A stretch of DNA of 29,992 bases, taken from positions 1 through 29,992 of IMG/VR virus record IMGVR_UViG_3300030099_000552. One strand, given 5' to 3'. Shown piece by piece: positions 5,372-26,792 of this stretch. Each line of letters begins with the position of its first letter. The stretch's first letter is position 1. The translations under genes and the position numbers were made by a program. The DNA comes from a virus. The notes under the pieces are model-generated. The model searched no databases. It saw only the letters and a list, made by a program, of their open reading frames with translations, and was not told the DNA's origin.

Positions 5372-5622
5372 CTCTATATAAATGTGTATATTGTGAAGTA
5401 AAAAAAGAAATAAGTAAATCTACTATTGTATTAAGGGAAGGCAGGTGGGTTGTTAAAGAAGCACTATGTGATTGTGGCAAGTATATGGAAAGTGAAATAG
5501 TAGAAGGTATGCCTGATTTAATAAGAACAGAACCTACATTAAGCAAAAAACGTGATATGCTTTGGGATAGTGCAAAAGAAAAACTAATAGGAGAAAGAGG
5601 TGTAAATGAAGATTTTAAATAA
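5368..5622 (+). CDS. Small zinc-ribbon-like protein
   Basis: This 84-residue protein has a CxxC pair at C6/C9 (KCVYCEVKK) and a CxC pair at C34/C36 (LCDCGKYM). These four cysteines could bind one zinc ion in a ribbon. The C-terminal half (EGMPDLIRTEPTLSKKRDML) looks conserved in sequence style but matches nothing I can name. It is locked between DUF3310 (4-base overlap) and methyltransferase 2 (its TAA shares one base with the ATG). A regulatory or adaptor role in the DNA metabolism operon is possible. Confidence 0.6.
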   Translation: MTLYKCVYCEVKKEISKSTIVLREGRWVVKEALCDCGKYMESEIVEGMPDLIRTEPTLSKKRDMLWDSAKEKLIGERGVNEDFK

Positions 5623-6245
5623 TGGAAATAACTAATGAAGATAATATGCAACTAATGTCAAAATATGAGGATAATTTTTTTGACTTAGCTATTGTGGATC
5701 CGCCTTATGGTGTTTTAAATAAAACTAAAAGAGGTGCGCAAAGAAGTCCAAATAAATATAAAGTAAGAGCTGAAAGTTGGGATATAAAACCTAATAAATG
5801 TTATTGGCAAGAGTTATTTAGAGTTAGTAAAAACCAAATAGTTTGGGGTGGAAATTATTTTACTGATAATTTATACGAAAATAATGCTTGGATATTTTGG
5901 CATAAAAAAAACCCTGTTGATAATTATGCTGATGGCGAGTTAGCTTGGACTTCTTTTAAAAAAAAGCAATTAAAATATTTTGATTATATGTATTATGGTG
6001 CAATCAATTCAGAAAAAAACAGATTTCACCCTACACAAAAACCTGTAAAGTTGTATGAGTGGCTGCTGATAAACTATGCTAAGGAAGGAGATAAAATACT
6101 TGACACACATCTTGGAAGCGGTAGTATTGCTATTGCTTGTCACAATTTAGGTTTTGAATTAACTTCTTGCGAGTTAGATAAAGAGTATTATAATGCAGCA
6201 ATAAAAAGAATAGAACAACACAAAGCACAAAAAAGAATATTTTGA
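5622..6245 (+). CDS. Orphan DNA adenine methyltransferase 2, paralogue of the enzyme at 2130
   Basis: This 207-residue N6-adenine DNA methyltransferase has DPPYG at 26-30 and motif I DTHLGSGS at 161-168, preceded by HPTQKPVKLYEWLL, again with Leu instead of the usual Phe. The first 30 residues differ from the 2130 enzyme at only a few positions (MEITNEDNMQLMSKYEDNFF against MKITNEDNMQLMAKYEDNYF), and the last 70 are also close. Residues 31-130 are largely different: here KTKRGAQRSPNKYKVRAESW, there KFKGGKSGKMNFNEVVKKGW. The pair therefore looks like a duplication whose target-recognition part diverged or was exchanged, giving two methylation specificities. No partner nuclease is encoded. Expected role: evasion of host restriction. 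Confidence 0.9.
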   Translation: MEITNEDNMQLMSKYEDNFFDLAIVDPPYGVLNKTKRGAQRSPNKYKVRAESWDIKPNKCYWQELFRVSKNQIVWGGNYFTDNLYENNAWIFWHKKNPVDNYADGELAWTSFKKKQLKYFDYMYYGAINSEKNRFHPTQKPVKLYEWLLINYAKEGDKILDTHLGSGSIAIACHNLGFELTSCELDKEYYNAAIKRIEQHKAQKRIF

Positions 6246-6625
6246 AATTTGTAATAAAGGATAATAAAGATAAACAAAGTCTGATAAACTATCTTAAACA
6301 ATTAGGTAGTGATTATACAGTTGAGGTTAAAAAACAAAAAAACAATAGATCAATGATGCAGAACAATTATTATTGGAAATGTATAGTACAAGTATTAGCA
6401 GAAGAACTTGGTTACTTTAATGATGAAATGCACAATACACTAAAAGTTAAATTTGCAAGTGAATGGTCAAGTATAGAAGTAAACAATAAAACAATAGGAC
6501 TACAAACAGTTAATAGCACTGCAAGAATGAACACTAAAGCATTTGAGATATATACAGAAAATATACGAATATGGGCATTAAGTGAATTAAACATTAGATT
6601 AATGTTACCAAATGAATATAAATAA
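6242..6625 (+). CDS. ninB: NinB-like recombination protein
   Basis: This 127-residue protein resembles lambda NinB (Orf), a single-strand DNA-binding recombination mediator. Residues 36-44 (NRSMMQNNYYW) correspond to the family signature RSLxQNxxxW. Later, TVNSTARMNTKAFEIYTENI corresponds to the TSxMxxxEFxxxxExI region, and the protein ends in a helix and a short acidic/aromatic tail. The likely start is TTG at 6242, overlapping the methyltransferase stop as TTGA; the first ATG (6352) would cut off the N-terminal strand region. Together with the NinG-like protein at 3102 it suggests recombination-dependent replication or repair. It is coupled to methyltransferase 3 (TAATG). Confidence 0.7.
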   Translation: MKFVIKDNKDKQSLINYLKQLGSDYTVEVKKQKNNRSMMQNNYYWKCIVQVLAEELGYFNDEMHNTLKVKFASEWSSIEVNNKTIGLQTVNSTARMNTKAFEIYTENIRIWALSELNIRLMLPNEYK

Positions 6626-7398
6626 TGAAAAGAAACAAAATATATAATGAAAACTGTTTAGACACTATGAAAAAAATGAATAGTAATTTTATAGATGCTA
6701 TAATTACATCACCACCTTATGATGATTTAAAAAAATATAATGGTTACACTTTTAACTTTGAGAGTATAGCTAATGAATTATATAGAGTATTAAAAGAAGG
6801 TTGTGTTTTAGTATGGATAGTAAATGATAGAATTAAAAATGGTAGTGAAACAGGCACAAGTTTTAAACAAGCACTTTATTTTAAAGAAATAGGTTTTAAT
6901 TTACATAATACTATGATATGGAACAAAACTAATCCAATGCCACAAATACAACATAATAGATATTTAGATGCTTTTGAGTATATGTTTATATTAAGTAAAG
7001 GCAAAGTAAAAAAATTTAATCCTATACGAGTAAATTGTAAAGATGCAGGTAATCAATATAAATACACTACAAAACACCCTTCAGAAAATAAAGATAGAAT
7101 AAAAAAAAATTTTAAAATTAATAAAAATAAAATATTAAATAATGTATGGAATGTTGCGGTATCAAAATTGAAAACAACACACCCTGCAACAAGTCCACAA
7201 AAACTTATAGATAAACATATTATAACATGGACAAATGAAAAAGATTTAGTATATGATTGTTTTAGTGGTAGTGGAACAACTGCTTTAAGTTGCATTAAAT
7301 ATAACAGAAATTTTATTTGTAGTGAAATTAGCAAAAAATATGTAGAACTAAGTAATAAAAGAATAAAAGAAATAAAAGCACAAAACAAATTATTTTAA
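6625..7398 (+). CDS. Orphan DNA methyltransferase 3 (SPPY type)
   Basis: This 257-residue beta-class DNA methyltransferase has motif IV SPPYD at 29-33 and motif I DCFSGSGTT at 211-219. SPPY occurs in N4-cytosine enzymes and in some N6-adenine enzymes, so the modified base is uncertain. The central region (about 95-185, basic and aromatic) should be the target-recognition domain. It is not closely related to the other two methyltransferases and has the classical Phe in motif I. It is the last gene of the early block; the proposed late promoter begins at 7382, inside its 3' end. Three methyltransferases in a 30 kb phage without a nuclease suggests that its hosts carry several restriction systems. 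Confidence 0.85.
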   Translation: MKRNKIYNENCLDTMKKMNSNFIDAIITSPPYDDLKKYNGYTFNFESIANELYRVLKEGCVLVWIVNDRIKNGSETGTSFKQALYFKEIGFNLHNTMIWNKTNPMPQIQHNRYLDAFEYMFILSKGKVKKFNPIRVNCKDAGNQYKYTTKHPSENKDRIKKNFKINKNKILNNVWNVAVSKLKTTHPATSPQKLIDKHIITWTNEKDLVYDCFSGSGTTALSCIKYNRNFICSEISKKYVELSNKRIKEIKAQNKLF

Positions 7399-7443: not shown

Positions 7444-7716
7444 ATGGATAAACGAATAAACAATGGTGGTGCTAGAAAAGGTGCTGGTCGTAAAAGCAAA
7501 TCAGAAGAACAAAAGTTAATAGAGAATTTAACACCTATGAACAGTATGGCTTTAAATTCTTTAAAACAAGGTTTAGAGAATAAAGAACAATGGGCAGTAA
7601 AGTTATTTTTTGAATACTTTTATGGTAAACCACAACAAAGAGTAGATGTAACTACAAATGATGAAAGTATTAATATGCCTATAATAAACTTTGTAGAAAC
7701 TGAAACTGAACAATAA
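7444..7716 (+). CDS. terS: Terminase small subunit-like protein
   Basis: This 90-residue basic protein starts with a glycine/lysine-rich arm NGGARKGAGRKSKSEEQK, a common N-terminus of small DNA-binding terminase subunits, followed by helical segments and YGKPQQRVDVTT. It should bind phage DNA at the packaging site and recruit the large subunit, which is encoded directly downstream. I chose ATG 7444 (MDKRINNGG); an in-frame TTG at 7420 would add eight unlikely residues and overlap the leader palindrome. The gene is shorter than many TerS proteins. It ends in TAA at 7714-7716, overlapping the beginning of the large subunit frame. Confidence 0.7.
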   Translation: MDKRINNGGARKGAGRKSKSEEQKLIENLTPMNSMALNSLKQGLENKEQWAVKLFFEYFYGKPQQRVDVTTNDESINMPIINFVETETEQ

Positions 7717-8902
7717 ATATAAATTACTATTTAATTCTGATGCTCGTTATTATATAATAACAGGTGGTAGAGGATCAGGTAAATCATTTGCAGTAACAGT
7801 ATTTCTAACATTACTAACAATGAGTAAAAACATTAGGGTATTGTTTACAAGATATACAATGGTATCAGCACATTTATCTATTATACCTGAATTTTTAGAA
7901 AAAATAAAATTACTAGGTTTTGAAAATATATTTAGTATAAACAAAGCAGAAGTATTAAATTTAGGTAATAAATCAGATATACTATTTAGAGGTATTAAAA
8001 CATCAGCAGGTAATCAAACTGCAAGTTTAAAATCATTACAAGGAATATCTTGCTGGGTATTAGATGAAGCAGAAGAATTAATAGATGAAGATATATTTGA
8101 TACAATAGATTTAAGTATTAGAGAAAAAAATGTACAGAATAGAATTATACTAATACTCAATCCTGTTACAAAAGAACACTGGATTTACAATAGATTTTTC
8201 CAAGATAAAGGTGTAGAAGCTGGTTTTAATGGTGTTAAAGACAATGTATGCTATATTCATAGTACATACTTAGACAATAAAGAAAACCTTTCTAAGAGCT
8301 TTTTAGAGCGTATTAGGACTATAAAAGAACGTAATATAAAAAAGTATAAACACCAAATACTTGGTGGTTGGCTTGACAAAGCAGAAGGTGTAGTATTTGA
8401 TAATTGGACAATAGGACAATTTAATCCTGATGGACTACAAACATCTTGTGGTATGGACTTTGGATTTAGTGTTGATCCTGATAGTTTAGTAGAGGTTGCA
8501 ATAGATAAGAAAAAAAAGAAGATGTATGTTAAAGAACATATATACAAGAATGGTTTAAAGTCGCATGAATTAGCTAAGATAGTATTAGATAAAGTAGATA
8601 ATAAACTTATAATAGCTGATAGTGCTGAACCTAGATTAATAGAAGATTTAAAACACTTAGGAGTAAATATAAAACCTGTAAAAAAAGGTACAATAGAAAG
8701 TGGTATAACTAGAATGCAAGATTATGAATTAGTTGTATGTCCTGAATCAACTAATATTGCAAAGGAACTTAACAACTATGTATATGCAGATAAAGGTTCT
8801 AAACTATATGTAGATTCATATAATCACGCTATTGATGCTATAAGATACAACGTAATTTATCATTTAGATAATCCTAATTATGGTAAGTATTTTGTACAGT
8901 AA
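7706..8902 (+). CDS. terL: Terminase large subunit (PBSX/Terminase_3 type)
   Basis: This is the motor and nuclease that packages DNA into the prohead. With the start proposed here it has 398 residues. The ATPase domain shows Walker A GGRGSGKS at 20-27 and Walker B CWVLDEAEE with D120/E121. The nuclease domain shows CGMDFGFSVDP (D251), LIIADSAEP (D305) and YNHAIDAIRY (D377). The first ATG in frame is 7820, but that would delete Walker A. The frame is open back to 7697, yet holds no ATG, GTG or TTG. The best candidate is CTG at 7706, giving MNNKYKLLFNSDARYYIITG, which looks like a normal TerL N-terminus. Alternatives are a +1 frameshift from the small subunit or a sequencing indel. Confidence 0.9.
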   Translation: MNNKYKLLFNSDARYYIITGGRGSGKSFAVTVFLTLLTMSKNIRVLFTRYTMVSAHLSIIPEFLEKIKLLGFENIFSINKAEVLNLGNKSDILFRGIKTSAGNQTASLKSLQGISCWVLDEAEELIDEDIFDTIDLSIREKNVQNRIILILNPVTKEHWIYNRFFQDKGVEAGFNGVKDNVCYIHSTYLDNKENLSKSFLERIRTIKERNIKKYKHQILGGWLDKAEGVVFDNWTIGQFNPDGLQTSCGMDFGFSVDPDSLVEVAIDKKKKKMYVKEHIYKNGLKSHELAKIVLDKVDNKLIIADSAEPRLIEDLKHLGVNIKPVKKGTIESGITRMQDYELVVCPESTNIAKELNNYVYADKGSKLYVDSYNHAIDAIRYNVIYHLDNPNYGKYFVQ

Positions 8903-8932: not shown

Positions 8933-9574
8933 ATGAAAATAAATGTAAGGAAAAAAGGTAAGGTAAAAACCTTTAACTTAATAAAAAGCTGGTCAGATGT
9001 TACAGTTGAAAAATGGGTTAAGTTAGTAAATTTACATAAAGGTAGTAGAAGTAAAGAAGCATTAGAAACAATAAGTGCATTATCAGATATACCTAAGAAG
9101 TTAATAAATGAGTTAGGAATACAAGATATTGCATTAATACTTACAAAACTAAGCGAATTACAAAAACTATCTAAAAGCAAGTTAAGAAAAATAATTAAGG
9201 TAGAGGATCAAGAGTTTGGTTTTCATCCTAATTTAGAAGATATAACATTAGGTGAATGGTCAGATATAGAGCATTATATAAAATTAGGTGTAGAAAAATT
9301 TATGCCACAAATTATGGCAGTTTTATATAGACCAATAGTAGAACAAAGAAATGATAAATATAGTATTGAAGCATATAGTGGTAATATTGATGTCAGGGCA
9401 GAATTATTTAAGAAGATGAGAGCAGAAGATGTACAAGGTGCTATGGTTTTTTTTTATCATTTAGGAAACGAATTACTGAAGATTTTGCCATTATATTTAA
9501 CACAAGCTATGACACAAATGGAGAAGGAGATAAAGGACAAAGTTTTGCGGAAAAATGGGGTTACTTTGGCATAA
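8933..9574 (+). CDS. Tail assembly chaperone, first frame (gpG-like)
   Basis: This 213-residue, helical, charged protein follows TerL and precedes the tail completion proteins. Features fitting a gpG-type chaperone are an N-terminal strand region (KINVRKKGKVKTFNLIKSW), LEDITLGEWSDIEHYI in the middle and FFYHLGNELLKILPLYL near the end. Such proteins hold the tape measure during tail assembly. A second frame, shifted by -1, is open from 9412 and continues to 9706, coding for FAEKWGYFGIMYRLCNGDIS, which looks like the conserved continuation made by programmed frameshifting in many siphoviruses. Proposed late promoter 2 ends at its ATG. Confidence 0.6.
   Translation: MKINVRKKGKVKTFNLIKSWSDVTVEKWVKLVNLHKGSRSKEALETISALSDIPKKLINELGIQDIALILTKLSELQKLSKSKLRKIIKVEDQEFGFHPNLEDITLGEWSDIEHYIKLGVEKFMPQIMAVLYRPIVEQRNDKYSIEAYSGNIDVRAELFKKMRAEDVQGAMVFFYHLGNELLKILPLYLTQAMTQMEKEIKDKVLRKNGVTLA
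9447..9455 (+). other. Candidate slippery run (nine T) in the tail chaperone gene
   Basis: Nine consecutive T lie inside the window where both the zero frame and the -1 frame are open (9412-9571). Read as T TTT TTT, it is a perfect -1 slippery heptamer. It is, however, upstream of the segment FYHLGNELLKILPLYL that looks conserved in the zero frame. The GAAAAAT stretch at 9550-9556, preceded by the purine-rich GGAGAAGGAG (9520-9529), is an alternative site. Confidence 0.3.
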
Positions 9575-9708
9575 TGTATAGATTATGTAATGGAGATATA
9601 AGTAAATTAGAAACAATAACTAAACTAAATTTATTAGAAGCATTTACTTGGCTTAGTTATGAAACAGATTTAGAAAGTACAACAAAAGTAAAAATAAATG
9701 GTCAATAA
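9574..9708 (+). CDS. Tail assembly chaperone, -1 frame extension (gpT-like) or coupled small gene
   Basis: From its own ATG it codes for 44 residues beginning MYRLCNGDISKLETITKLNL. The frame extends upstream without a stop to 9412 and reads DTNGEGDKGQSFAEKWGYFG just before the ATG, which looks like real protein. The most likely product is therefore a fusion with the preceding gene made by a -1 frameshift, as in lambda gpGT. As a second possibility, the stop TAA of the first frame and this ATG overlap (TAATG), so reinitiation could make a free 44-residue protein. The role is tape-measure chaperoning. It overlaps the next gene by 11 bases. Confidence 0.55.
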   Translation: MYRLCNGDISKLETITKLNLLEAFTWLSYETDLESTTKVKINGQ

Positions 9709-24363: not shown

Positions 24364-24582
24364 ATGAAATATACAATACTAAATACAGAAGAATTAAATA
24401 GTGTAAATTTTGATGAAGTTTTAGAAACATCACAAAATACTTTGCGATATAATAATCAAAAAACTAAATTTGTGTTAAAATTTGAAGGTAATACACCAAG
24501 TTTTTTAGTTGATAAACAACTATATGATTATGATGGTATAATGGAAATACTAAACAGTCCTGATTGGACACAAGAAGATTAA
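24364..24582 (+). CDS. Small conserved protein before portal
   Basis: This 72-residue acidic protein runs MKYTILNTEELNSVNFDEVL, KFVLKFEGNTPSFLVDKQLY, and ends in the helix GIMEILNSPDWTQED. The beta-then-helix layout and the position directly before the portal recur in Bacteroidota phages, but a function is not known to me. The ATG follows immediately on the lectin stop; its stop lies 2 bases before the portal ATG. It may be a portal or connector assembly factor. Confidence 0.55.
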   Translation: MKYTILNTEELNSVNFDEVLETSQNTLRYNNQKTKFVLKFEGNTPSFLVDKQLYDYDGIMEILNSPDWTQED

Positions 24583-24584
24583 TT

Positions 24585-26792
24585 ATGAAAGAAATTATTA
24601 ATATTGATTTATCAGCACAAACTGCACCACAAGTACAAGAAGTACGTGGTAAAGATTATATAGAATATGGTACTGAAAATTGGAGGAATTTATATCCACA
24701 ATTTTTAATTGATTTATATTATAACAGTTCTACTAATGCAGCTATAATAAATGCCACAAGCGAACTAATTGCAGGTGAAGAAATAGTAATAGATGATGAA
24801 GATGAACGTAATTTAGATGCTATGGTTAAGCTAAAGCAATTCATGGCTAATCCTAATTCTAATGAAACTTTACATGAGTTAATTAAAAAAGTATCTTTTG
24901 ACTTTAAATTACAAGGTGCATTTGCTTTAAATATTATATGGAGTAAAGACAGAACACAAATAGCTGAAATATATCATATACCTGTTGAAAAAATTAGAGC
25001 AGAAAAACCTGATGCTATGGGTAAAGTATGTGCATATTATGTAAGTGCAGATTGGAGTAATACAAGAATAAATAAACCTTATAGAGTACCAGCATTTAAC
25101 GTAAATGATAGAACATCAGCAAACCAAATACTTTATACAGGTCTTTATTCACCTAATATGAATAGTTATTATACACCTGATTATTTAGCTGGAAATAATT
25201 GGAGTTTAATAGATCAAAAAGTATCAGAATATCATCTTAATAATATATCTAATGGGTTTAGTGGTTCTTATTTTATATCTTTTGCGAATGGTGTACCTAC
25301 ACAAGAGGAACGTTTCCAAATAGAGAATAGTTTAAAAGAAAAATTTACAGGTAGTGAAAGTTCAGGTAGATTTGTACTTACCTTTAGTGAAGATAGAAAT
25401 AGAGTACCTGAAATAACACCTATTGCAGTAAGTAATGCAGATAAACAGTATTTAGCTTTACAAGAGTTATTAGTGCAAAATATACTAACTGCACATAGAG
25501 TAACATCACCAATGCTGATGGGTATTAAGAACGAAACAGGTTTAGGTAGTAATGTAGATGAACTTAATAGTGCTGCTAACTACTATTTGAATACAGTATG
25601 TAAACCATATCAAAATCACATAATAAAAATATTAAGAAAACTGTTTAGAGTTAATAATATGGATATGCCTATTAGTTTTGTACAACTTAAACCTATTACA
25701 GTACAATTTACATCAGAAGATTTAAAAGGTGTTTTAACAGAAGATGAACTAAGAGAAGAAATGGGTTTGCCACCATTAAATGAAGAAGTAAATGTTAGAG
25801 AAGATTTTGCTAAAGTAGGTAGTATGGTAACAGAAGGTAAAGATGGTGAAATAGATTTACCTTTATTTGACACAATAGAAGAAGCAGAAGCAGAAGCTGA
25901 AAGATTAGGTTGCAAAGGTTATCATGAACATACATTAGATGGTGAAACAGTTTATATGCCATGTGAAGATCATGAGCAAATAAAAGAAATAACAAGTTTA
26001 AAAGATTGTAATTGTAAAGAAGAATTTATTACACCTAATCCATGTCAACCAGGATATGAAGCAATAGGTACTAAAATAAAAGATGGTAGAGAAGTACCTA
26101 ATTGTGTACCTATAAAAGCAGAAAAAGAAAATTTAAATTTATCTAAATTTATAGAAGAATTTGGTGAAGATATACCTGAAGATTGTGAACTAATACATGA
26201 AGAAAAAGTAGGTGATGAACATATTGAATTTGATTTTGAATATATGCTAAATGATTTAGTAGATGAAAAAATACAATTAGCAAGTACAGGTAGAGCATTA
26301 CCAAGTAGAAAGTCAGAACAAGATGGTATATCTAAAAAAACATACGATTATTATAGAGTACGTTATGTATATGCAGAAGATCAATTTTTAACTAGAAAAT
26401 CAGGAAAACAAAGACCTTTCTGCAGACAAATGATGGGTGCAAATAAATTATATCGTAAAGAGGATATAGTTAGATTAGATAAAATAGCAGTCAATCCAGG
26501 TTGGGGTAAAGGTGGTGCAGATACTTATTCAATATGGTTAGCAGATCAAGTTGAATGTTGTGATGCAAAAAAACACAAATTTTACAAAGGCGGTGGTAAT
26601 TGCCATCATTTTTGGCTAAGACAAATATACAAAACTACATTAGGTGTATCTAAAACAACTAAAATAGAAGATGCAGATATAATAGGTTATACTAAAGCAA
26701 GAAGTGAAGGTTTTACTGCAAAGAAGAATAATGTAAAAGTAGCAAAGCCACCAAAAAGAATGAAAAATAAAGGTTTTATTAAAAAGAGATAA
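24585..26792 (+). CDS. Portal protein fused to Cys/His-rich C-terminal domains
   Basis: The gene encodes 735 residues from ATG 24585; an in-frame TTG at 24564 lies inside the previous gene and is less likely. Residues 1-410 look like a portal of the PBSX/HK97 kind: YPQFLIDLYYNSSTNAAIIN, IYHIPVEKIR, AHRVTSPMLMGIKNETGLGS, YYLNTVCKPYQNHIIKILRK, ELREEMGLPPL. Behind it are three extras: a motif block LGCKGYHEH to YMPCEDHEQ (about 441-465), a block PCQPGYEAIGTKIKDGREVP NC (about 486-507), and a C-terminal domain (about 600-735) with FCRQMMGANKLYRKEDI, KGGGNCHHFWLRQIYK, reminiscent of the end of Mu F-type minor head proteins. The portal is usually 400-500 residues, so this is a fusion. Confidence 0.75.
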   Translation: MKEIINIDLSAQTAPQVQEVRGKDYIEYGTENWRNLYPQFLIDLYYNSSTNAAIINATSELIAGEEIVIDDEDERNLDAMVKLKQFMANPNSNETLHELIKKVSFDFKLQGAFALNIIWSKDRTQIAEIYHIPVEKIRAEKPDAMGKVCAYYVSADWSNTRINKPYRVPAFNVNDRTSANQILYTGLYSPNMNSYYTPDYLAGNNWSLIDQKVSEYHLNNISNGFSGSYFISFANGVPTQEERFQIENSLKEKFTGSESSGRFVLTFSEDRNRVPEITPIAVSNADKQYLALQELLVQNILTAHRVTSPMLMGIKNETGLGSNVDELNSAANYYLNTVCKPYQNHIIKILRKLFRVNNMDMPISFVQLKPITVQFTSEDLKGVLTEDELREEMGLPPLNEEVNVREDFAKVGSMVTEGKDGEIDLPLFDTIEEAEAEAERLGCKGYHEHTLDGETVYMPCEDHEQIKEITSLKDCNCKEEFITPNPCQPGYEAIGTKIKDGREVPNCVPIKAEKENLNLSKFIEEFGEDIPEDCELIHEEKVGDEHIEFDFEYMLNDLVDEKIQLASTGRALPSRKSEQDGISKKTYDYYRVRYVYAEDQFLTRKSGKQRPFCRQMMGANKLYRKEDIVRLDKIAVNPGWGKGGADTYSIWLADQVECCDAKKHKFYKGGGNCHHFWLRQIYKTTLGVSKTTKIEDADIIGYTKARSEGFTAKKNNVKVAKPPKRMKNKGFIKKR

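Follow-up and report, generated by a model that had tools for sequence, protein, structure and literature searches.

The large terminase (TerL) of the phage in virus record IMGVR_UViG_3300030099_000552 is very probably translated from a CTG codon at position 7700, as a separate protein of 400 residues whose start lies within the tail of the preceding gene and is used through weak or coupled initiation. The window analyzed here is the whole stretch of 29,992 bases. From comparison of sequences, the arrangement appears to be common to this marine phage and about a hundred related phages.

TerL (7700 to 8902, plus strand; MKLNNKYKLLFNSDARYYIITGGRGSGKS...) matches both domains of the Terminase_3, or PBSX-type, large terminases: the ATPase domain (Pfam Terminase_3, PF04466; E 1.4e-34, residues 17-223) and the RNase H-like nuclease domain (Pfam Terminase_3C, PF17288; E 6.1e-15). 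The protein also matches phrog_2 (4.1e-46), and its closest solved structure by sequence is the Sf6 gene 2 protein (2e-13). Its frame comprises 401 stop-free codons from 7697 to 8899 (KLKLNNKYKLLFNSDARYYIITGGRGSGKS...). Immediately before it stands an in-frame TAG (7694 to 7696, plus strand), which closes the frame two codons 5' of CTG 7700. Codons for the Walker A motif GGRGSGKS occupy 7763 to 7786 on the plus strand, and no in-frame ATG occurs before 7820. The motif belongs to the protein provided that translation starts upstream of it, and would be lost if translation began at that ATG.

Between the TAG and the Walker A codons there is no ATG, GTG, or TTG, and the only CTG codons are those at 7700 and 7706. 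Re-reading the frame thus confirmed what a first-pass annotation had noticed: a terminase with no conventional start ahead of its ATPase motif. The same annotation expected automatic gene calling to truncate the protein; indeed, an ORF finder restricted to ATG, GTG, and TTG starts returns just 7820 to 8902, a 360-residue product from which Walker A is missing. Two ATA codons (7754 and 7757), minor starts in translation table 11, also lie 5' of Walker A, positioned within the conserved strand preceding the P-loop. A run of 22 AT-rich codons devoid of ATG, GTG, and TTG is easily expected by chance. The element that is not chance is the conservation of the arrangement, because none of the 80 closest relatives has ATG, GTG, or TTG at codon 7700.

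These 80 relatives are viral contigs from many separate metagenomes, with TerL identities of 87-100%. The frame is open across the same stretch in every one of them, and in 67 the whole segment ahead of Walker A contains no ATG, GTG, or TTG. The other 13 appear to be incidental cases, judging from their sequences: ten have an in-frame TTG a few codons 5' of 7700, derived from a TerS valine codon (GTT); two have TTG at codon 10; and in one, codon 20, adjoining the P-loop, is ATG. A single contig could by itself contain a sequencing or assembly error that deleted an ATG or a fused frame, as the first-pass annotation had allowed. However, the arrangement is shared by all 80 contigs, and TerL differences between them are largely synonymous, which marks them as real, diverged genomes. 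Such independent relatives exclude a sequence error, to which we give practically no weight.

The choice of start codon was examined in 97 unique relatives (at least 75% identity, retrieved independently of the start codon). Codon changes were counted along a tree whose input was the DNA 3' of Walker A. Codon 7700 (7700 to 7702, plus strand) is CTG in 96 of these and CCG in one, contig L303, which carries TTG TTG just upstream; its third base undergoes no change on the tree. Codon 7706 (7706 to 7708, plus strand) serves as a control that shares its phase with respect to TerS, albeit an imperfect one, as TerS has already ended there in some relatives. It is CTG in 64, CTT in 23, CTA in 8, and CTC in 2, through 14 tree changes that are all synonymous, and it encodes leucine in all 97 and in most outgroups.

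The first-pass annotation had proposed CTG initiation near the TerS stop, at codon 7706. Initiation of that kind is upheld, whereas the codon is not. A start at 7706 would give a plausible amino terminus (MNNKYKLLF) and a shorter overlap with TerS. Nevertheless, the codon is CTT, CTA, or CTC in 33 of the 97 relatives and always specifies leucine, as an internal residue would. This synonymous variation rules out 7706 as the start, leaving it barely any probability, and codon 7700 fits instead (reading MKLNNKYKLLF...). Codon 7697, on the other side, varies among K, I, T, A, V, and N across 96 relatives; residues so unlike one another are as expected 5' of a start, and this codon probably lies outside TerL. 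A stop is present at the codon equivalent to 7694 in 76 of 96 relatives.

The overlapping frames provide a further comparison. At codon 7700, base 2 occupies the third, four-fold degenerate position of a TerS threonine or serine codon; it has changed once (in L303), versus a mean of about eleven changes per site in that phase upstream. In the twelve codons that precede the overlap, changes at TerL-phase bases 1, 2, and 3 number 27, 131, and 69; in the sixteen that follow it, they number 99, 34, and 226. This periodicity appears TerS-like before the overlap, where TerL base 2 coincides with the third codon position of TerS, and TerL-like after it. Taken together, the substitution patterns show codon 7700 conserved as a whole triplet and evolving as a start codon would. 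Leaving aside L303, the clade shows no canonical start where this gene begins, and only start-like codons take the place of CTG.

The nature of those replacements is informative. A pattern scan for ATG, GTG, or TTG at codon 7700 retrieved 20 contigs, and the same pattern with CTG retrieved at least 120; scans conditioned on NTG reveal which substitutes exist rather than how frequent they are, so frequencies are taken from the unconditioned set. Substitutes on the tree are TTG in L174, TTG in a group of 15 members, and GTG in L184, on a deep branch of the clade. CTA, CTT, and CTC were not found at codon 7700 within the clade members examined. The 15-member group, a TerL subclade made up of L177 and its relatives (15 unique contigs), starts with TTG and has extra sequence inserted into the tail of TerS. 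Most members still have older in-frame CTG codons 5' of the TTG; in L165 these are removed by a stop. More distantly, L156 (71% identity) has ATG at the equivalent codon, and L224 and L271 (70-71% identity) have CTG. The L224 sequence (70% identity) reads TAA-AGT-CTG, in which the CTG, two codons after the stop, is the sole NTG before the conserved leucine.

The preceding gene (7444 to 7716, plus strand) encodes a putative small terminase, TerS, of 90 residues. It directly precedes TerL and is conserved in relatives. Its match to an unnamed PHROG is weak, and nothing stronger was found, so its identity rests on gene order. The TerS stop occupies 7714 to 7716. The overlap with TerL is therefore 17 nt counted from the first base of CTG 7700, that base included, or 11 nt from CTG 7706, the latter as reported in the first-pass annotation; in nearly all relatives it is 11, 14, or 17 nt. 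The downstream start thus lies close to the upstream stop, as in translationally coupled gene pairs, for which overlaps of 11-17 nt are typical. In nearly all members with CTG, the TerS residue over codon 7700 is threonine or serine (xCT), and the G that follows completes the CTG. In contig L174, the stretch of TerS immediately 5' of the overlap is strongly unlike that of its close TerL relatives, which suggests recombination close to the TerS-TerL junction.

These features suggest a model for TerL initiation. Ribosomes finishing TerS would pass over CTG 7700 and terminate 17 nt further on, a distance of 11 to 17 nt in almost every relative. Initiation at CTG 7700, by reinitiation or weakly de novo, would rely on initiator Met-tRNA, in surroundings that are rich in A and lack a Shine-Dalgarno sequence, and TerL output would be low and tied to that of TerS. 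The coupling, the low yield, and a regulatory purpose, if there is one, are our inferences. A packaging motor needs few copies of TerL, which low output would fit. A search of the 29,992-nt window for a phage-encoded initiator tRNA or one with a CAG anticodon yielded no tRNA. No other CTG-started gene is evident in the window from start codons and spacing, with few or no relatives found for many of the genes.

Position -3 relative to the CTG is A in 91 of 96 relatives, and position -13 is A in all 96. Both match the initiation determinants of Flavobacterium johnsoniae, in which A at -3 and at -12/-13 favors initiation on mRNAs without Shine-Dalgarno sequences (PMC6847099). There are counterpoints. 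The upstream A-rich context is TerS coding sequence as well, and may not be there for initiation. A minority of relatives have TTG two or three codons upstream, which could be used as the start instead. Moreover, CTG initiates inefficiently and is very seldom a start codon in bacteria, so that over time one would expect an essential gene to exchange it for a stronger start.

The first-pass annotation had also raised a +1 frameshift that would fuse TerS to TerL. By that account a programmed +1 (or -2) shift carries ribosomes from TerS into a TerL frame that has no start of its own. The geometry is suitable: TerL is read in the +1 frame with respect to TerS, over whose final codons it extends, and most members encode leucine at 7700. 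However, the room for a shift amounts to only about five codons, in which the TerS codons vary; tails include GAA ACT GAA ACT GAA CAA TAA, AAA ACT GAA TCT TAA, GAC TCT GGA ACT GAA CAA TAA, and AAG TCT GGA TCT TAA. No conserved slippery codon pair was found in the TerS/TerL overlap of relatives, where only xCTG is constant. Likewise, no conserved RNA structure was found at the junction in 48 relatives (alifold energy 0; mean MFE z 0.39), although some known frameshift sites work without a stimulatory structure. Codon 7700 changes to GTG, TTG, or ATG in relatives and never to CTA, CTT, or CTC, and L174 retains NTG there even though its adjacent upstream TerS sequence differs. With neither slippery sequence nor RNA structure in evidence, and with ordinary starts at the same codon in related lineages, we reject the frameshift as very improbable.

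If CTG 7700 is indeed the start, why has it persisted? It may be kept only because the TerS codon needs threonine or serine (xCT), and not for any benefit of weak TerL initiation; we put this at somewhat below an even chance. Threonine or serine is present there in nearly all CTG members, L184 with its GTG retains serine through AGT, and ATG would force asparagine or tyrosine into TerS. Against this, TerS tolerates isoleucine, phenylalanine, and asparagine in lineages with TTG or ATG, and GTG, a single conservative step away (ACT to AGT), is found only once. The weak start of another gene in this genome (6242 to 6625) also drifts to ATG: this gene begins with TTG in the window, and its relatives use ATG (92), TTG (7), and GTG (5), switching freely, unlike TerL. 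The other possibility, which we consider rather unlikely, is that selection actively favors CTG 7700 for its weakness as a start, keeping TerL scarce in comparison with TerS via termination-reinitiation together with IF3-type discrimination. If true, common marine phages would have, throughout this clade, a translational throttle on their packaging motor. As the reason for CTG, we lean slightly toward the passive TerS constraint.

Among named phages, the closest TerL comes from Nonlabens phage P12024S (Inhavirus), with 62% identity in an alignment that covers 96% of the protein, and a flavobacterial host is suggested on that basis. Like the window TerL, the P12024S large terminase overlaps a small upstream gene; in contrast to the CTG here, it is annotated from TTG at the codon equivalent to 7697.

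Rare start codons are already known. The sigR gene starts with GTC in 32 of 34 Streptomyces species, where it is repressed by IF3 and its output is low (PMC5472188). It resembles the TerL CTG in being a rare start that a whole clade has kept, against what gene prediction assumes (PMC5472188). It differs in having been demonstrated experimentally, and in belonging to a bacterial sigma factor rather than to a phage gene that starts inside the preceding one. The IF3 gene infC starts with ATT in Escherichia coli (PMC5472188); it too is an essential gene with a non-canonical start, but is autoregulated through IF3, a loop not evident for TerL. Among phages, ORF10 of the Bacteroides phage phiB124-14 is the single ORF annotated there with a CTG start (PMC3338817); that start is predicted by one annotation call, whereas the TerL CTG has an evolutionary test. 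A survey of 36 bacterial and archaeal genome groups counted 61,358 ancestral AUG starts, of which only 2 had become CUG (PMC5622118); reconstructed switches of this kind are very rare. A literature search for a terminase started with CTG found none described in the papers it covered. For an essential phage gene, a CTG shared by an entire clade is unusual, and this one is unusually well conserved.

There are practical consequences. TerL is a diagnostic gene, and gene finders that allow only ATG, GTG, and TTG truncate it throughout the clade. The loss of Walker A along with about 40 residues affects marker-gene trees and the prediction of packaging type. The system also offers a case of natural CTG initiation kept over long evolution, in phages with probable hosts that do without Shine-Dalgarno sequences.

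Several other features were noted. A prophage scan of genomes returned two matches only, L302 and L303, in metagenome-assembled genomes labeled Euryarchaeota and Pseudooceanicola; both are phage contigs of the clade that were probably misbinned, and prophages therefore provided no host assignment. Within the window, the portal gene (24564 to 26792; Phage_portal, 7e-13, plus DUF3721) does not adjoin TerL but lies about 16 kb away; it has a TTG start and a 19-nt overlap with the previous gene. A 44-residue ORF (9574 to 9708) directly follows a gene for a 213-residue protein (8933 to 9574), sharing one base with its stop, and overlaps the next gene. Finally, three separate genes with matches to the N6/N4 DNA methylase family (2130 to 2744, 5622 to 6245, and 6625 to 7398) fall within 5.3 kb.
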